This document shows, in pieces, positions 22,900 through 30,499 of a DNA stretch of 38,352 bases (within the stretch, counting starts at the first letter, position 1; every line of letters starts with the position of its first letter). The stretch is taken from NCBI GenBank assembly GCA_027067055.1, contig JAMOMK010000074.1:1-38352 (forward strand). Direction: 5' to 3'. The notes below the pieces were generated by a model. That model was not told the DNA's origin. It ran no database searches and saw only the letters and a list, made by a program, of their open reading frames with translations. Source of the DNA: Lysobacterales bacterium. Its GTDB lineage: Bacteria > Pseudomonadota > Gammaproteobacteria > Xanthomonadales > Marinicellaceae. Made by a program: the position numbers and the translations under genes.

Positions 22900-24582
22900 T
22901 TGAAAACCTCAGTGACAGGATCTACATTTAATCAACTATTTGAATATTGCAAAAAAGGTAAGGCGCAAAATTTACTCAGTGCGCTTGGTGATACCGAAGC
23001 ATGTTCTGTCATTGATGAGCGCGGTCAAAGTCTACTTTGTGTTGCATTAAAAAACGGGCATTCTTTATTAGTCAAGACACTTCTATCCGAAGGATCGAAA
23101 TTTAAAACTAAAAATCCACCACTTATCTCTGCCTGTCAATACCCAAAAGACGAGTGTGATTGCTTAGAAATCGCTTTGCAAATAGATGACGGCATCAATG
23201 CATTAACATCAGCCAATAGAACTGGCTTGATGACAGCATGCCTTCTTGGACATCTCAACAAAACACAACTATTATTAACATTAAATGCTGATATAAATCA
23301 ACAAGATATATACGGCAATACGGCACTCATTGAAGCCGTTCAATCAAATAAAAAAACTTTAGTTAAATTAATCCTGCAACACCACCCAAAAGTCAATCAC
23401 GCAAATAGTCAAAAAGAAACCGCCCTGATTTTAGCATTGAGACAAAAAACACCATCTGAAGATATTGTTATGCAATTATTGCAAGCTCAAGCTGATCCAG
23501 AAATAGTAGATAACAACAATCGCTCGGCATGGTTAATTGCAAAACAGAAACACCCTAAAATCGCACGCCAAATTGAAAAACATTTAAACAGTATTAACCA
23601 AATTGAATTACCTTTTTTTACCAACAACTATGAAAGTGATCTAGAAGAACCCATTGATGACACGGTCGTTGCCACACCACAAGATAACGGGCAACTCTTA
23701 GATGAAGAAAAAACCCTGAACAATGAGAAGCCAAGTAATCTGAAAAAGACGAATGACACATCACCTCAATTATCCAGCCAGTCAGTAGAAACTCCCAGCA
23801 AAGCCAATAAGCCCTTGTTTTTTCAAAAAGAACCTGCAAAATCAAACCAACAAGCCTGGTTTCATGCCGCAAAACAAGGCAATTTAGGCGGCCTTAATCG
23901 CATGATAATCGAAGGCATAAACATTAATTGCACCGACTCTAAGGGTTGCACTGCCTTAATTCGTGCCTGCGGTCATTCTCGCCGAGCAGTTGTTTCTTTT
24001 TTACTGCAGCAAAAAGCTGATATTGAAGCCCGTTCTGACAATGGCAGTACGGCTTTATCATCGAGTATCATCGGCAATTGCCGCAGAGTTACAGGTTTAT
24101 TGCTTGACAAAAAGGCAAACCCAAACGGGCTAGGCCCTGCTGATTACACCTATGCCACTATCGCAGCTGCTGGTTGGAATGATGCCATGTTAAGTATTCT
24201 TTACCGTTATAAGGCTGACATATTTATCATTAATAAACACCAACAATCCTTATTGCATATTATTGCTCAAGCCGCTGAATACAATAACAATATTAATAGC
24301 GCAAAATCCTGTTTTGCTTTTTTGCTTGATCATGGCTTAGACATCAATGCCAAAGACATCTTTGGAAATACAGCATTAATGCTCTTATGCGGAGCTCATA
24401 AAAAACGTTACAAGGTTGATGATAGAAATATAGCAGCACTGGTGTATCAAACAATAAAACTGGGAGCATCAGCGGCTCTAACCAATCAACAAAAACGATC
24501 CGCTCTTGATGCCGCACATTTTCACAAATTAATTCAAACCAAAGGTGTACTGATGAATGCACTGTCTTGGAATGACAGTTAA
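22900..24582 (+). CDS. Ankyrin-repeat protein
   Basis: The 560-residue protein has two ankyrin blocks. The first, near residues 40-230, includes NRTGLMTACLLGHLNKTQLL, YGNTALIEAVQSNKKTLVKL and KETALILALRQ. The second, near residues 315-530, includes KGCTALIRACGHSRRAVVSF, NGSTALSSSIIGNCRRVTGL and FGNTALMLLCGAH. A polar, probably disordered linker rich in Gln, Ser and Pro joins them. There is no signal peptide or membrane segment, so it should be cytoplasmic and act by protein binding. Translation would start at TTG, with GAGGG 12 bases upstream; no ATG gives the full N-terminus. It is followed after 14 bases by a sigma factor gene, so it may feed into that regulator. Confidence 0.82.
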   Translation: MKTSVTGSTFNQLFEYCKKGKAQNLLSALGDTEACSVIDERGQSLLCVALKNGHSLLVKTLLSEGSKFKTKNPPLISACQYPKDECDCLEIALQIDDGINALTSANRTGLMTACLLGHLNKTQLLLTLNADINQQDIYGNTALIEAVQSNKKTLVKLILQHHPKVNHANSQKETALILALRQKTPSEDIVMQLLQAQADPEIVDNNNRSAWLIAKQKHPKIARQIEKHLNSINQIELPFFTNNYESDLEEPIDDTVVATPQDNGQLLDEEKTLNNEKPSNLKKTNDTSPQLSSQSVETPSKANKPLFFQKEPAKSNQQAWFHAAKQGNLGGLNRMIIEGININCTDSKGCTALIRACGHSRRAVVSFLLQQKADIEARSDNGSTALSSSIIGNCRRVTGLLLDKKANPNGLGPADYTYATIAAAGWNDAMLSILYRYKADIFIINKHQQSLLHIIAQAAEYNNNINSAKSCFAFLLDHGLDINAKDIFGNTALMLLCGAHKKRYKVDDRNIAALVYQTIKLGASAALTNQQKRSALDAAHFHKLIQTKGVLMNALSWNDS

Positions 24583-28071: not shown

Positions 28072-29271
28072 TCACCCTTTCACACACACCACTTGTTTCA
28101 ATGTATGCTCTATAGACACCAAATCGTGTTGGTTGTTCATCACCGTTTCAATGTCCTTGTAAGCTCCAGGGATTTCATCCACTACGCCTTTATCTTTTCG
28201 GCATTCGACACCACTGGTTTGATTTTGTAAATCAATGGCGTTAAATTGCTTTTTGGCTTGGGTTCGACTCATTGCTCTTCCTGCACCGTGCGAACACGAA
28301 CAAAATGAAGATTTTGAACCTTTGCCTTTGACAATAAACGACTTGGCTCCCATGGAACCTGGGATGATTCCCAACTCATCGAGCTCTGCACTGATTGCAC
28401 CTTTACGTGTGACGTAAACTTTTTCACCATAATGTGTTTCATAAGAAATATAATTATGGTGGCAATTTATGGCCTTTTTGGTTAAGGTGAATTTTGGCAA
28501 TTTTGAAGTTTGTAATGCATTAACCACTAATTTCATCATCTCACGGCGGTTTATCCACGCGTATTCTTGCGCCCAATTGACCGCTTGCACATAGTCATCA
28601 AAATACTGCGTGCCTTCATTAAGATAGGCTAAGTTTTTATCAGGTAAATGAATCTGATGCCTTTGCATATCTTTTTGTGCAAGATTGATAAAATAACGAC
28701 CAATGGCATTGCCAACACCGCGCGAACCCGAGTGCAGCATAATCCACACATCATCGTTTTCATCCAAACAGATTTCAACGAAGTGGTTGCCACCACCCAA
28801 TGTACCGAGCTGTCGGTGCCAGGTTTGGTGAAATGTGCGAAACATCTTGGCAATGCTTGGATGTTTGTACAAAATTTCATCAAGTGGTTTATCAAGTGCT
28901 TTGACCGTGGATGATTTCACCACCGCACGGCTGTGCCAGTTAAACCCTACAGGTATCAATCGCTCGATATTCCGCCTGATACTGTATAAATTATCAGGCA
29001 AATCCGTAGCTTTCAAACTGGTGCGAACGGCATTCATACCGCAACCAATATCCACACCAACGGCGGCTGGTATCACCGCATTGAGTGTCGGAATCACCGA
29101 ACCAACGGTTGCACCAATCCCTACATGCACATCAGGCATGGCTGCCACATGATGGTGCACAATCGGTAAATTAGCAATATTAACCAACTGATCAATCGCC
29201 TTAGAATTGATGTCAGTGGTGTAAATCTTAATAGGCACGCGTGCCTTGTTTATTTGTTTTAAAATGGGCAT
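28072..29271 (-). CDS. rtcB: RNA-splicing ligase RtcB
   Basis: The 399-residue enzyme joins RNA 2',3'-cyclic phosphate or 3'-phosphate ends to 5'-OH ends using GTP and manganese. It aligns by eye along its whole length with E. coli RtcB: AMPDVHVGIGATVGSVIPT, VGVDIGCGMNAVRT (metal ligands Asp 74 and Cys 77), LGTLGGGNHFVEICLDE, LHSGSRGVGNAIGRYFI, GSMGAKSFIVKGKG. SFCSCSHGAGRAMSRT contains the His that carries GMP, and the end TLKQVVCVKG is also conserved. The start at 29271 has AAGGA about 9 bases before it and matches the family; upstream in-frame codons would run into a structured leader. No rtcA or sigma-54 activator rtcR is nearby. Confidence 0.96.
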   Translation of the reverse strand: MPILKQINKARVPIKIYTTDINSKAIDQLVNIANLPIVHHHVAAMPDVHVGIGATVGSVIPTLNAVIPAAVGVDIGCGMNAVRTSLKATDLPDNLYSIRRNIERLIPVGFNWHSRAVVKSSTVKALDKPLDEILYKHPSIAKMFRTFHQTWHRQLGTLGGGNHFVEICLDENDDVWIMLHSGSRGVGNAIGRYFINLAQKDMQRHQIHLPDKNLAYLNEGTQYFDDYVQAVNWAQEYAWINRREMMKLVVNALQTSKLPKFTLTKKAINCHHNYISYETHYGEKVYVTRKGAISAELDELGIIPGSMGAKSFIVKGKGSKSSFCSCSHGAGRAMSRTQAKKQFNAIDLQNQTSGVECRKDKGVVDEIPGAYKDIETVMNNQHDLVSIEHTLKQVVCVKG

Positions 29272-29291: not shown

Positions 29292-29384
29292 AATTCGTAA
29301 ATGACCAAGCATGAGTAAGATGGGCCTCGCCCATCATTGATTAAACTCATTACTTTATGATGGGCAAGGCCCATTTTACGAATT
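29292..29384. repeat. Cruciform-type repeat in the rtcB leader
   Basis: An outer stem (AATTCGTAAAT at 29292-29302 with ATTTTACGAATT at 29373-29384) encloses two hairpins. These are GATGGGC-CTC-GCCCATC (29319-29335) and ATGGGC-AAG-GCCCAT (29360-29374). The outer arms overlap the second hairpin by two bases. It ends 20 bases before the rtcB start codon, so in RNA it would form a large structure close to the ribosome-binding site. Confidence 0.7.
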
Positions 29385-29407
29385 TTACTTTTGCTTCAGG
29401 CATAAAA

Positions 29408-29439
29408 AAAGCCTGAAATACAAGTGCGTTTCAGGCTTT
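29408..29439 (-). terminator. Terminator upstream of rtcB, with an alternative pairing
   Basis: AAAGCCTGAAA and TTTCAGGCTTT form an 11-bp stem with a 10-base loop; on the minus strand it ends in a run of seven T. It lies between the leader peptide and rtcB. An upstream TTTCAGG (29452-29458) can pair with the CCTGAAA of the first arm (29429-29435), which would prevent the terminator from forming. Confidence 0.82.
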
Positions 29440-29474
29440 AATTTTTAGATTCCTGAAAGGCACGATTCTTCATC

Positions 29475-29506
29475 AAGCCTTCCAGATATTTTTGTGCTGG
29501 AGGCTT
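29475..29506 (-). promoter_or_regulatory. Hairpin directly after the leader peptide
   Basis: On the plus strand AAGCCTTCCAG (29475-29485) faces CTGGAGGCTT (29497-29506), a ten-pair stem with one bulged base and an 11-base loop. The leader peptide's stop codon overlaps the edge of this stem, so a ribosome stopped there could change the fold. Confidence 0.55.
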
Positions 29507-29537
29507 AAGTGTTTATTCTCATTTGTAAGTGTTTCAT
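29505..29537 (-). CDS. Candidate leader peptide MKHLQMRINT upstream of rtcB
   Basis: A ten-codon frame begins with ATG at 29537, preceded by a perfect AGGAGG six bases upstream, the best ribosome-binding site in this region. It ends in TAA right before a hairpin and a terminator/antiterminator pair. No residue is strongly over-represented (two Met; one each of His, Gln and Arg), so what it would sense is not evident. It may also be a chance frame. Confidence 0.45.
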   Translation of the reverse strand: MKHLQMRINT

Positions 29538-29595
29538 GGTTTACCTCCTAAAATTATTGGTGTAAATTAAAGCTATATTGATTTAATTTGTGGGT

Positions 29596-29623
29596 ATCTT
29601 AAGTTTTTTTGTTTAAATGTCAA
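29596..29623 (-). promoter_or_regulatory. Sigma-70 promoter for the rtcB leader
   Basis: A perfect TTGACA (29618-29623) and TAAGAT (29596-29601) are separated by 16 bases on the minus strand. The start would be near 29589, giving about 50 bases to the leader peptide and about 320 to rtcB. It lies just after the stop of fghA. Confidence 0.6.
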
Positions 29624-29644: not shown

Positions 29645-30484
29645 TTAAAATAGTAAAAAATCATTATGATACCTCAAATGCTCTTCAATAAAACTTGCAA
29701 TAAAATAATAGCTATGGTCGTAGCCTTCTTGCATTCGCAGTGTTAAAGGGTGATTGTATTGTTCACAAACTTTTTGTAAGCGTTCAAGTTGTAGGTATTC
29801 TTTTAAAAATTCATCATCTGTGCCTTGGTCGATAAATAATGGCAGCTTTGTTATGGCTGTTTTGACCAATTCACAACTATCGTATTTTTTCCATGCTTGT
29901 TTATCATCTCCTAAATAACCTTTTAATGCCTTTTGCCCCCAAGGGGTTTGTGATGGAGCGACGATGGGTGAAAAGGCACTAACGCTTTGGTATTTATCGG
30001 GATTTCTAAGAGCAATCATTAATGCACCGTGTCCACCCATTGAGTGCCCGCAGATGCTTTTTTGCTTACTGACATTGAAATTCGATTCGATGATTTGTGG
30101 TAATTCTTCGGTGATATAGTCGTACATATTGTAATTGGCTGACCATTTAGGCTCAGTAGCATTAAGGTAAAACCCTGCACCACTGCCAAAGTCATAACTG
30201 TCATCTTCACCTTCAATTCCTAGATTACGTGGACTGGTATCCATGGTGACGATAACCAAACCAAGTTCTGCAGCAACACGTTGAGCTCCAGCTTTGATAA
30301 CAAAATTTTCTTCGGTGCAAGTTAAACCTGATAACCAATAAAGTACCGGAAGTTTTTTATCTGTGATTTGTGGTGGCAAATAAACTGCAAAGGTCATGGG
30401 TGCATTATTGACCAGTGAATCGTGTTGGTAGAATTCTTGTGAACCACCGAATAATTTGTATTTGTTTTTTAATTTTATTTTCAT
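29645..30484 (-). CDS. fghA: S-formylglutathione hydrolase
   Basis: The 279-residue esterase hydrolyses S-formylglutathione to formate and glutathione, the second step of formaldehyde detoxification. Its partner FrmA is encoded at 34264. The alpha/beta-hydrolase fold shows PVLYWLSGLTCTEENFVIKA, the nucleophile elbow ICGHSMGGHGALMIALRNP with the catalytic Ser, an Asp in IDQGTDDEFL and a His in GYDHSYYFIASFIEEHL. Length matches the family (about 280). I chose the ATG at 30484 because GAGG lies six bases upstream; the ATG at 30496 overlaps that site. Confidence 0.94.
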   Translation of the reverse strand: MKIKLKNKYKLFGGSQEFYQHDSLVNNAPMTFAVYLPPQITDKKLPVLYWLSGLTCTEENFVIKAGAQRVAAELGLVIVTMDTSPRNLGIEGEDDSYDFGSGAGFYLNATEPKWSANYNMYDYITEELPQIIESNFNVSKQKSICGHSMGGHGALMIALRNPDKYQSVSAFSPIVAPSQTPWGQKALKGYLGDDKQAWKKYDSCELVKTAITKLPLFIDQGTDDEFLKEYLQLERLQKVCEQYNHPLTLRMQEGYDHSYYFIASFIEEHLRYHNDFLLF

Positions 30485-30499
30485 GGTTTTCCTCATACT

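Follow-up and report, generated by a model that had tools for sequence, protein, structure and literature searches.

How do bacteria that lack the regulator RtcR sense RNA damage? The question is raised by an rtcB gene in the stretch of DNA analysed here (the window; 38,352 nucleotides of contig JAMOMK010000074.1 from a Lysobacterales bacterium), which belongs to a genome of 3.42 Mb in 145 contigs with Marinicella sediminis, M. meishanensis and uncultured bins as its nearest named relatives. A first-pass annotation had noted that no RtcR is encoded nearby, and a search for RtcR (PF06956, E<=1e-5) agreed on a wider scale, with matches in 0 of 33 genomes of the family, some of them incomplete, and a positive E. 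coli control. The same annotation had proposed that an attenuation system controls rtcB, a claim that conservation and covariation now support and that remains a prediction from sequence. The coding region of rtcB probably begins at the ATG at 29271; the longer ORF opens at 29337, but homologues align to it by tblastn only from residues 15-19 onwards.

Table 1. Features of the rtcB leader region and its flanking genes in the window
Feature	Position	Strand	Remarks
rtcB, putative controlled gene, 399 codons from probable start	28072..29271	-	PF01139, 433 bits
Esterase gene (fghA)	29645-30496		PF00756; leader region lies between it and rtcB
Leader promoter TTGACA-16-TAAGAT	29596..29623	-	TTGACA 29623-29618, 16 nt, TAAGAT 29601-29596
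Segment 1, leader Shine-Dalgarno (SD) AGGAGG	29544..29549	-	Can pair with segment 2
Leader frame ATGAAACACTTACAAATGAGAATAAACACTTAA, MKHLQMRINT	29505..29537	-	Ten codons and TAA
Segment 2, GCCTCCAG	29497..29504	-	Adjoins leader stop codon; partner 1 or 3
Segment 3, CTGGAAGGC	29477..29485	-	Partner 2 or 4
Segment 4, GTGCCTTTCAGG	29452..29463	-	Partner 3 or, via TTTCAGG, 5
Segment 5, AAAGCCTGAAA, terminator 5' arm	29429..29439	-	Partner 4 or 6
Intrinsic terminator 5:6, seven-T run	29404..29439	-	Models R1 and R3 match here

The TTGACA-16-TAAGAT promoter, the AGGAGG and the ten-codon MKHLQMRINT frame described by the first-pass annotation were all found in place (Table 1). The promoter matches at 10/12 and is the best among 16 promoter-like sites in 3 kb, where shuffles lead one to expect 10.8, and a TTGAC lies 25-140 nt upstream of the leader ATG in 29 of 38 rtcB leaders, compared with 10% of base-shuffled stretches. 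The hairpin of GCCTCCAG and CTGGAAGGC, lengthened by AA/TT, does overlap the leader stop codon, the terminator with its seven T is present (29439-29404, 5' arm AAAGCCTGAAA), and TTTCAGG (29458-29452) competes with this terminator for CCTGAAA (29435-29429), making the two folds exclusive as had been claimed. To these elements we add two further pairings, one of the SD AGGAGG with a CCTCC after the leader stop (1:2) and one of CTGGAAGGC with GCCTTTCAG (3:4), giving a chain of six segments, in which segment 4 is given as GCCTTTCAGG and segments 5 and 6 are the terminator arms; the pairs 1:2, 3:4 and 5:6 exclude 2:3 and 4:5. Both added pairings are found in the minimum-energy fold, which lies 4.9 sd below dinucleotide shuffles (0/200 as good). 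Judged by its sequence features, namely a promoter and SD, a terminator and conserved exclusive folds, the switch is a predicted leader-peptide attenuator. Between the terminator and rtcB, at 29319-29375, the window also carries an inverted repeat, AATGGGCCTTGCCCATCAT...ATGATGGGCGAGGCCCATC; short palindromes of similar pattern occur at 24127 and 34210, and a different repeat occupies this position in two relatives (L022, L023).

Conservation of the switch was followed through three sets of rtcB loci. An RtcB-family match at E<=1e-50 was present in 15 of the 33 family genomes, 13 of which have a close rtcB (76-100% identity), and in all 13 the leader and segment chain precede this gene, as recognised by eye in twelve and by a stem-chain detector in the thirteenth (L033). 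Among 80 named loci, the best 80 of 555 relatives, the leader stands directly before rtcB in 41 (11 on contigs shared with the family set, 26 others found by hand and L090, L097, L104 and L109 from the detector) and heads a slipin-rtcB operon in seven more, with slipin identified by tblastn (L091 by detector; L092, L098, L100, L106, L108 and L111 by eye). Genera with the leader include Leucothrix, Cocleimonas, Thiothrix, Thiofilum, Marinobacter and Alloalcanivorax, joined by Competibacter relatives, a granulosicoccacean and a methylococcalean bin. No switch was recognised in 32 of these best 80 loci, including one from Marinobacter (L063), and some of the 32 (e.g. L093, L117) begin within an operon. 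In a class sample of 184 evenly drawn genomes, 60 had RtcB at E<=1e-60; 20 stretches were taken before shorter-type RtcB genes, and in 5 of the 19 that were readable (L156, L157, L160, L162 and L164, three of them already in the named set) the leader was seen by eye directly upstream. Relatives had been suggested as the place to look for a conserved short frame, and both the frame and the position of its stop next to segment 2 are indeed kept over many genera. In many marine and freshwater bacteria rtcB lies behind such a leader, and translation of the leader probably decides whether the gene is read.

The stem-chain detector recovers only 14 of 38 hand-found leaders on cut-out sequences. On 1.02 Mb it returned 73 rows that reduce to 39 distinct sequences, including 5 that look spurious, compared with 1 row in Markov-resampled DNA; it returned none in eight slipin loci, in six of which a switch was recognised by eye while the other two begin within the operon. 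The leader also occurs in two genomes that lack an RtcB-family match at E<=1e-50: G008 has it complete and alone (L210), and in G001 it is cut by the contig end (L211) and followed by an rtcB remnant of ~25 codons, with a gene for a small basic protein coming next in both. A small basic protein with the motif GGVHxK is encoded between switch and slipin, or left where rtcB is lost, at L091, L108, L221 and L222; one copy matched no Pfam family and one no NCBIfam family. At L217 (G359:C13), a ten-codon leader, MIHLNPTPIK, and the full chain precede not rtcB but a PcfJ-like ORF of 478 residues. A second rtcB paralogue (57-62% identity) is present in eight family genomes (L034-L041), where no leader of this kind was seen by eye or pattern search; the window's genome yielded no match to this paralogue at E<=1e-50.

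Covariation, which had been put forward as a check on both alternative pairings, is present in the antiterminator and in the terminated state on alignment A2 (16 sequences, mostly Thiotrichales relatives) and is weaker on A1. On A2, the antiterminator 2:3+4:5 is paired in 85.6% of cells, with a covariation of 0.347 versus a shuffled mean of 0.255 (0/500 reach it) and slid controls of at most 0.175; its pair counts and pair types do not exceed shuffles, 157/500 and 500/500 of which reach the observed values. The terminated state 1:2+3:4+5:6 is paired in 91.0% of cells, with a covariation of 0.362 versus 0.230 in shuffles and at most 0.114 in slid controls, and 16 of its pairs are changed on both sides, which 0/500 shuffles reach; its pair types are reached by 331/500. 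Five columns of A2, one in each of segments 2-6 (73, 87, 123, 169 and 192), read A-U-A-U-A in seven rows and G-C-G-C-G in nine, a split that requires five matched changes but may reflect few events because the two groups in A2 are each internally related. On A1, 98 of 119 cells retain pair 4:5 and 58 of 84 retain 2:3, where A1 is partly misaligned. The SD also fits its own segment 2, at a mean of -10.5 kcal/mol compared with -9.0 for swapped partners (P = 0.0005; 20,000 permutations, 21 loci). In these alignments, the six segments in front of rtcB are seen to be kept by compensatory changes.

The effect of ribosome position was modelled by folding 21 leaders up to the terminator 5' arm with a 31-nt block as the ribosome, and antitermination was read out as the probability that the terminator 5' arm pairs upstream. 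Mean antitermination across the 21 loci was 0.69 for a ribosome at codons 1-3 and 0.58 for a ribosome-free leader, falling to 0.49 when the stop codon occupied the A site, and in this computed folding the early position exceeded the stop position in 19/21 leaders. The early-minus-stop difference was 0.205, whereas shuffling the interval from leader stop to terminator gave -0.001 (sd 0.029, maximum 0.062, 40 shuffles), a distance of ~7 sd. Among the 21, the gain was absent in L026 and L029, and L056 was flat. The window's own leader (L021) gave 0.71 early, 0.69 without a ribosome and 0.43 at the stop, with a dip to 0.05 at codon 7; in its equilibrium fold, the early and ribosome-free states are barely separated, and the decrease comes only at the stop-codon position. 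From the folding averages we predict the rule that a finished leader leads to termination and an early hang to readthrough.

On this basis we propose that a ribosome finishing the leader would cover segment 2 at the stop codon, such that 3:4 and then the terminator 5:6 would form and rtcB would be off. Were the ribosome to halt at the first codons, it would cover the SD and leave segment 2 free, such that 2:3 and 4:5 would form, the terminator would fail and rtcB would be transcribed. With no ribosome on the leader, pairing of the SD with segment 2 should favour termination, and in the folding model the early position exceeds the ribosome-free state by >0.1 in only 7/21 leaders and hardly at all in that of the window. 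Our main reading, to which we assign a probability of about 0.8, is that rtcB is switched on by a ribosome-controlled transcription attenuator when the ribosome falters on the short leader.

A set of 35 short leaders was picked by hand, 34 before rtcB and one before the PcfJ-like gene. Exactly ten codons make up 20 of these 35 distinct short leaders (range 9-15), and the stop lies directly before segment 2. Relative to gene starts, short leaders are enriched in Asn (3.2x), Gln (2.9x) and His (2.2x); after control for base composition (31 leaders), enrichment of Gln (2.0x), Asn (1.6x) and Phe (2.2x) is left and that of His is gone. Gln is codon 3 in nine of the 35 and codon 4 in ten, and Phe is codon 2 in eight. 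The likely signal would be elongation that slows or fails at the early codons, rich in Asn and Gln, and such an early stall could arise from damaged or missing tRNA or from impaired ribosomes, which RtcB could repair. Leaders of the Thiothrix and Leucothrix type (L103, L112, L116) have TACATGC at the start codon and its complement GCATGTA just upstream of the terminator, which might give the leader start one further pairing partner.

Leader-controlled resistance genes exist in which the nascent peptide arrests its own ribosome. We consider it improbable that the rtcB leader is of this drug-responsive type, its peptide stalling the ribosome on a specific small molecule, even though armZ, in the available text of PMC12057347, is induced by ribosome-targeting antibiotics. 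The sequence of the leader peptide is not conserved and has no invariant codon; it differs between groups (MKHLQMRINT, MSQLKQVSSN, MFNYQSRLIS, MLNQPRRNKQII) while length and position stay, which argues against an arrest peptide. A stall at codons 1-3 would, moreover, leave almost no peptide in the exit tunnel.

Less probable still is that the leader SD reports on the 3' end of 16S rRNA, ribosomes without an anti-SD being unable to hold the SD, which would then pair with segment 2. The cut that truncates 16S rRNA in E. coli lies near the 3' end. The SD does form a specific, covarying pair with segment 2, and E. coli RtcB is said, in the available text of PMC10272220, to re-ligate truncated 16S rRNA, but loss of the anti-SD would favour 1:2 and with it termination, the opposite of what induction requires. 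Among the long-leader switches described below, furthermore, the SD lies at least 23 codons upstream of segment 2, so that the SD:segment 2 pair is not common to the switch family.

Lower again in our estimate is a ligand-binding riboswitch or the target of a trans-acting small RNA, to which stable alternative folds would be suited but a conserved translatable frame would not. Rfam gave 0 matches in the window at gathering score, riboswitches and T-boxes included, and in nine related loci 22 matches, all to tRNA. Ten below-threshold matches around the leader are at chance level or to generic leaders, with Thr_leader at 24.5 bits against a gathering cut-off of 55, which does not place the region in this family of amino-acid biosynthetic leaders. 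Least probable of all is that the terminator simply ends transcription of the upstream fghA and the ORF beside it arose by chance, with rtcB read from its own downstream promoter: the hairpin alone is a good intrinsic terminator and an inverted repeat separates it from rtcB, but conservation extends to frame length, stop position and exclusive pairings, the leader is kept in the two genomes without an RtcB-family match (complete in G008, cut by the contig end in G001), and, with flanks of ~1.5 kb on each side, fghA was matched in only one of 20 loci (L001) and rtcB in 12, so that the switch stays with rtcB and not with fghA.

Attenuators of the same kind were sought elsewhere with the covariance model R3, built from 20 switches with the short rtcB leaders excluded. 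In the window's genome (G000) it gave three matches at E<=0.003, one of which is the rtcB leader of the window (29404-29507, 42.7 bits), on which it was untrained; the other two, on C47 and C138, were in the training set. At C47 (L238, 670-2743), a 32-codon leader, MKKHYLHNLIASRTLNMFGNFPCQIQSWTCMK, whose stop adjoins segment 2, is followed by a terminator, tRNA-Gln(ttg), a tRNA-Asn-like gene and slipin (Band_7), and a switch with slipin occurs in 14 other family genomes, tRNA-like genes being called between the two in 13 of the 14. At C138 (L223, 220-3500), the leader MNNKPNNYRTQKGNSYPMSACACLQLCIFIS precedes genes identified through Pfam as Hen1 (Hen1_L, 348.9 bits) and Pnkp (AAA_33, Metallophos, PNKP_ligase). 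Only the window's genome, among the four family genomes with Hen1, has Hen1-Pnkp with a switch, none having been seen by eye or with R1 upstream of Pnkp in the other three, in one of which the stretch is short. Family-wide, R3 matched 18 of 33 genomes at E<=0.001 in 28 rows. Slipin, confirmed each time by tblastn, follows in fifteen rows, 7 of them from training and 8 from outside it, and rtcB in eight, none from training; the others are one row each for Hen1-Pnkp, the lone G008 leader, a protein of 622 residues with no Pfam family, a slipin match read on the reverse strand and a match that looks spurious.

A class-wide search of 369 genomes with R3 gave matches in 20 at E<=0.003, and inspection covered all but G089, G177 and G383. 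Five matches from outside the training set reach 1.3e-6 or better: G201:C6 lies before nine tRNA genes, G235:C9 before rtcB, G061:C114 before tRNA-Thr and slipin, and G139:C253 before tRNA genes with slipin, while at G275:C187 an evident partner gene is absent. Weaker matches precede slipin operons (G185:C21, G408, G207 and G317, in the last with rtcB after slipin) or six tRNA genes with an HNH gene (G359:C7), and no switch was recognised on inspection of the matches in G407, G250, G138 and G181, while the one at G294:C339 was ambiguous. At G300:C13 (L321, 1851-4500), an EF-G gene (NCBIfam, 911 bits) lies behind two switches in series, the second seen by eye. At G185:C18 (L260, 1257-1480), a Cys-rich leader (CRCCC), MKNFAQNLVTICRCCCVKFSCVLH, and an attenuator stand directly before tRNA-Cys, an arrangement that resembles the classical single-amino-acid attenuator, here on a tRNA gene; a weak match of model R2 (L245) is this tRNA-Cys switch. 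R2 had matches in 9 of the 369 genomes, and its weak matches L243 and L244 were judged by eye to be terminators; R1 had matches in 19, and the inspected ones under ~40 bits (L177-L181, L192) are terminators without this leader.

Groups of spare tRNA genes, some with HNH or slipin, are headed by switches in G061, G201, G359 and G139 (L235, L218, L219, L320, L319, L318), with leaders of 42-60 codons where the start is clear and, at G061:C120 and C106, two switches in series. Rfam recognises 46 tRNA genes in G061; such switches precede 16 of these, and anticodons were read for the other 30. Gly(tcc), Lys(ttt), Tyr(gta), Asn(gtt), Asp(gtc), Glu(ttc), Val(tac), Gln(ttg), Thr(tgt) and Met(cat) are duplicated elsewhere in the genome, so that the copies behind switches seem to be spares; no further copy was found for Phe, His, Thr(cgt), Ser(gct) and Arg(acg), the genome being incomplete. 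Leader composition fits the tRNAs behind it in two cases that were chosen as striking (P <= 0.0003), the Cys-rich leader before tRNA-Cys (L260, Cys 5/23) and a Ser/Arg-rich leader before tRNA-Ser and tRNA-Arg (L219, Ser+Arg 15/47). A permutation over all 16 leaders gave P = 0.017; the other 14 show no match (P = 0.53), and we therefore claim no general rule. The idea that long leaders are pangrams, sampling every amino acid, has modest support: of 25 leaders, those of the Marinicella slipin operons (L226, L229, L230, L231) and two before tRNA/HNH genes (L218a, L220) lie above background (P ~0.001-0.016), and the remaining 19 do not reach 0.05 against internal windows.

Since the same kind of switch precedes other RNA-repair and spare tRNA genes, damaged protein synthesis could turn on its own repair. 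We give even odds to the broader reading that these loci form a dispersed regulon without a regulator protein, in which one attenuator family, with its stop adjoining segment 2, guards a kit for repairing or replacing parts of the translation machinery in Gammaproteobacteria (rtcB, Hen1-Pnkp, slipin-tRNA operons, spare tRNA arrays and an EF-G gene), the armZ switch being an offshoot. Each leader would then serve as a test message that releases the genes behind it when left unfinished. If so, bacteria without RtcR would sense damage by its consequence, a ribosome unable to finish a ten-codon test, the same logic would serve RNA ligases, methylated end repair and spare tRNAs alike, and the armZ leader of Pseudomonas would be placed in an older RNA-repair setting. 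The leaders would in that case offer short, transplantable elements with sensing codons open to direct testing in E. coli K-12.

In the attenuators of amino-acid operons (thr, trp, his), the position of the ribosome in the leader selects between exclusive folds, as we predict for rtcB. Unlike in these, no single amino acid dominates the rtcB leader, RNA repair would be the function controlled, and the leader SD is itself a pairing segment. In enterobacteria, rtcBA is under RtcR/sigma-54 control, with RtcR sensing tRNA fragments from damaged tRNA, as set out in the available text of PMC7790460; the gene controlled is the same, whereas the RtcR protein was found in none of the 33 family genomes here. 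A similar gene set answers translational stress in Anabaena, where TrcR represses a 26-gene tRNA operon, rtcB, slipin, HNH, rsgA and rimK and antibiotics against translation release this repression (available text of PMC10272220), but it does so under a protein repressor, where we find an RNA switch for each operon. The closest known system is PA5471.1/armZ of Pseudomonas aeruginosa, which likewise has a short leader frame. The first-pass annotation knew of no description of such control; this stands insofar as the open-licence literature yielded no rtcB attenuator beyond armZ, and has to be amended for armZ itself, described as RtcB-like (PMC12057347) and under leader-peptide attenuation. In the available text of PMC13041342 and PMC12057347, complete translation of its leader leads to the terminator and stalling leads to transcription, and in a mutant without the CCA-adding enzyme the stalling involves codons 3 and 4, Gln and Phe (PMC13041342). 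The gene behind the switch is of the RtcB family (PF01139) here as well; armZ is reported to encode an efflux anti-repressor, whereas the switches described here stand before rtcB in many genera and also before tRNA, slipin and Hen1-Pnkp genes. Common descent of the rtcB-type switch and the armZ leader is plausible.
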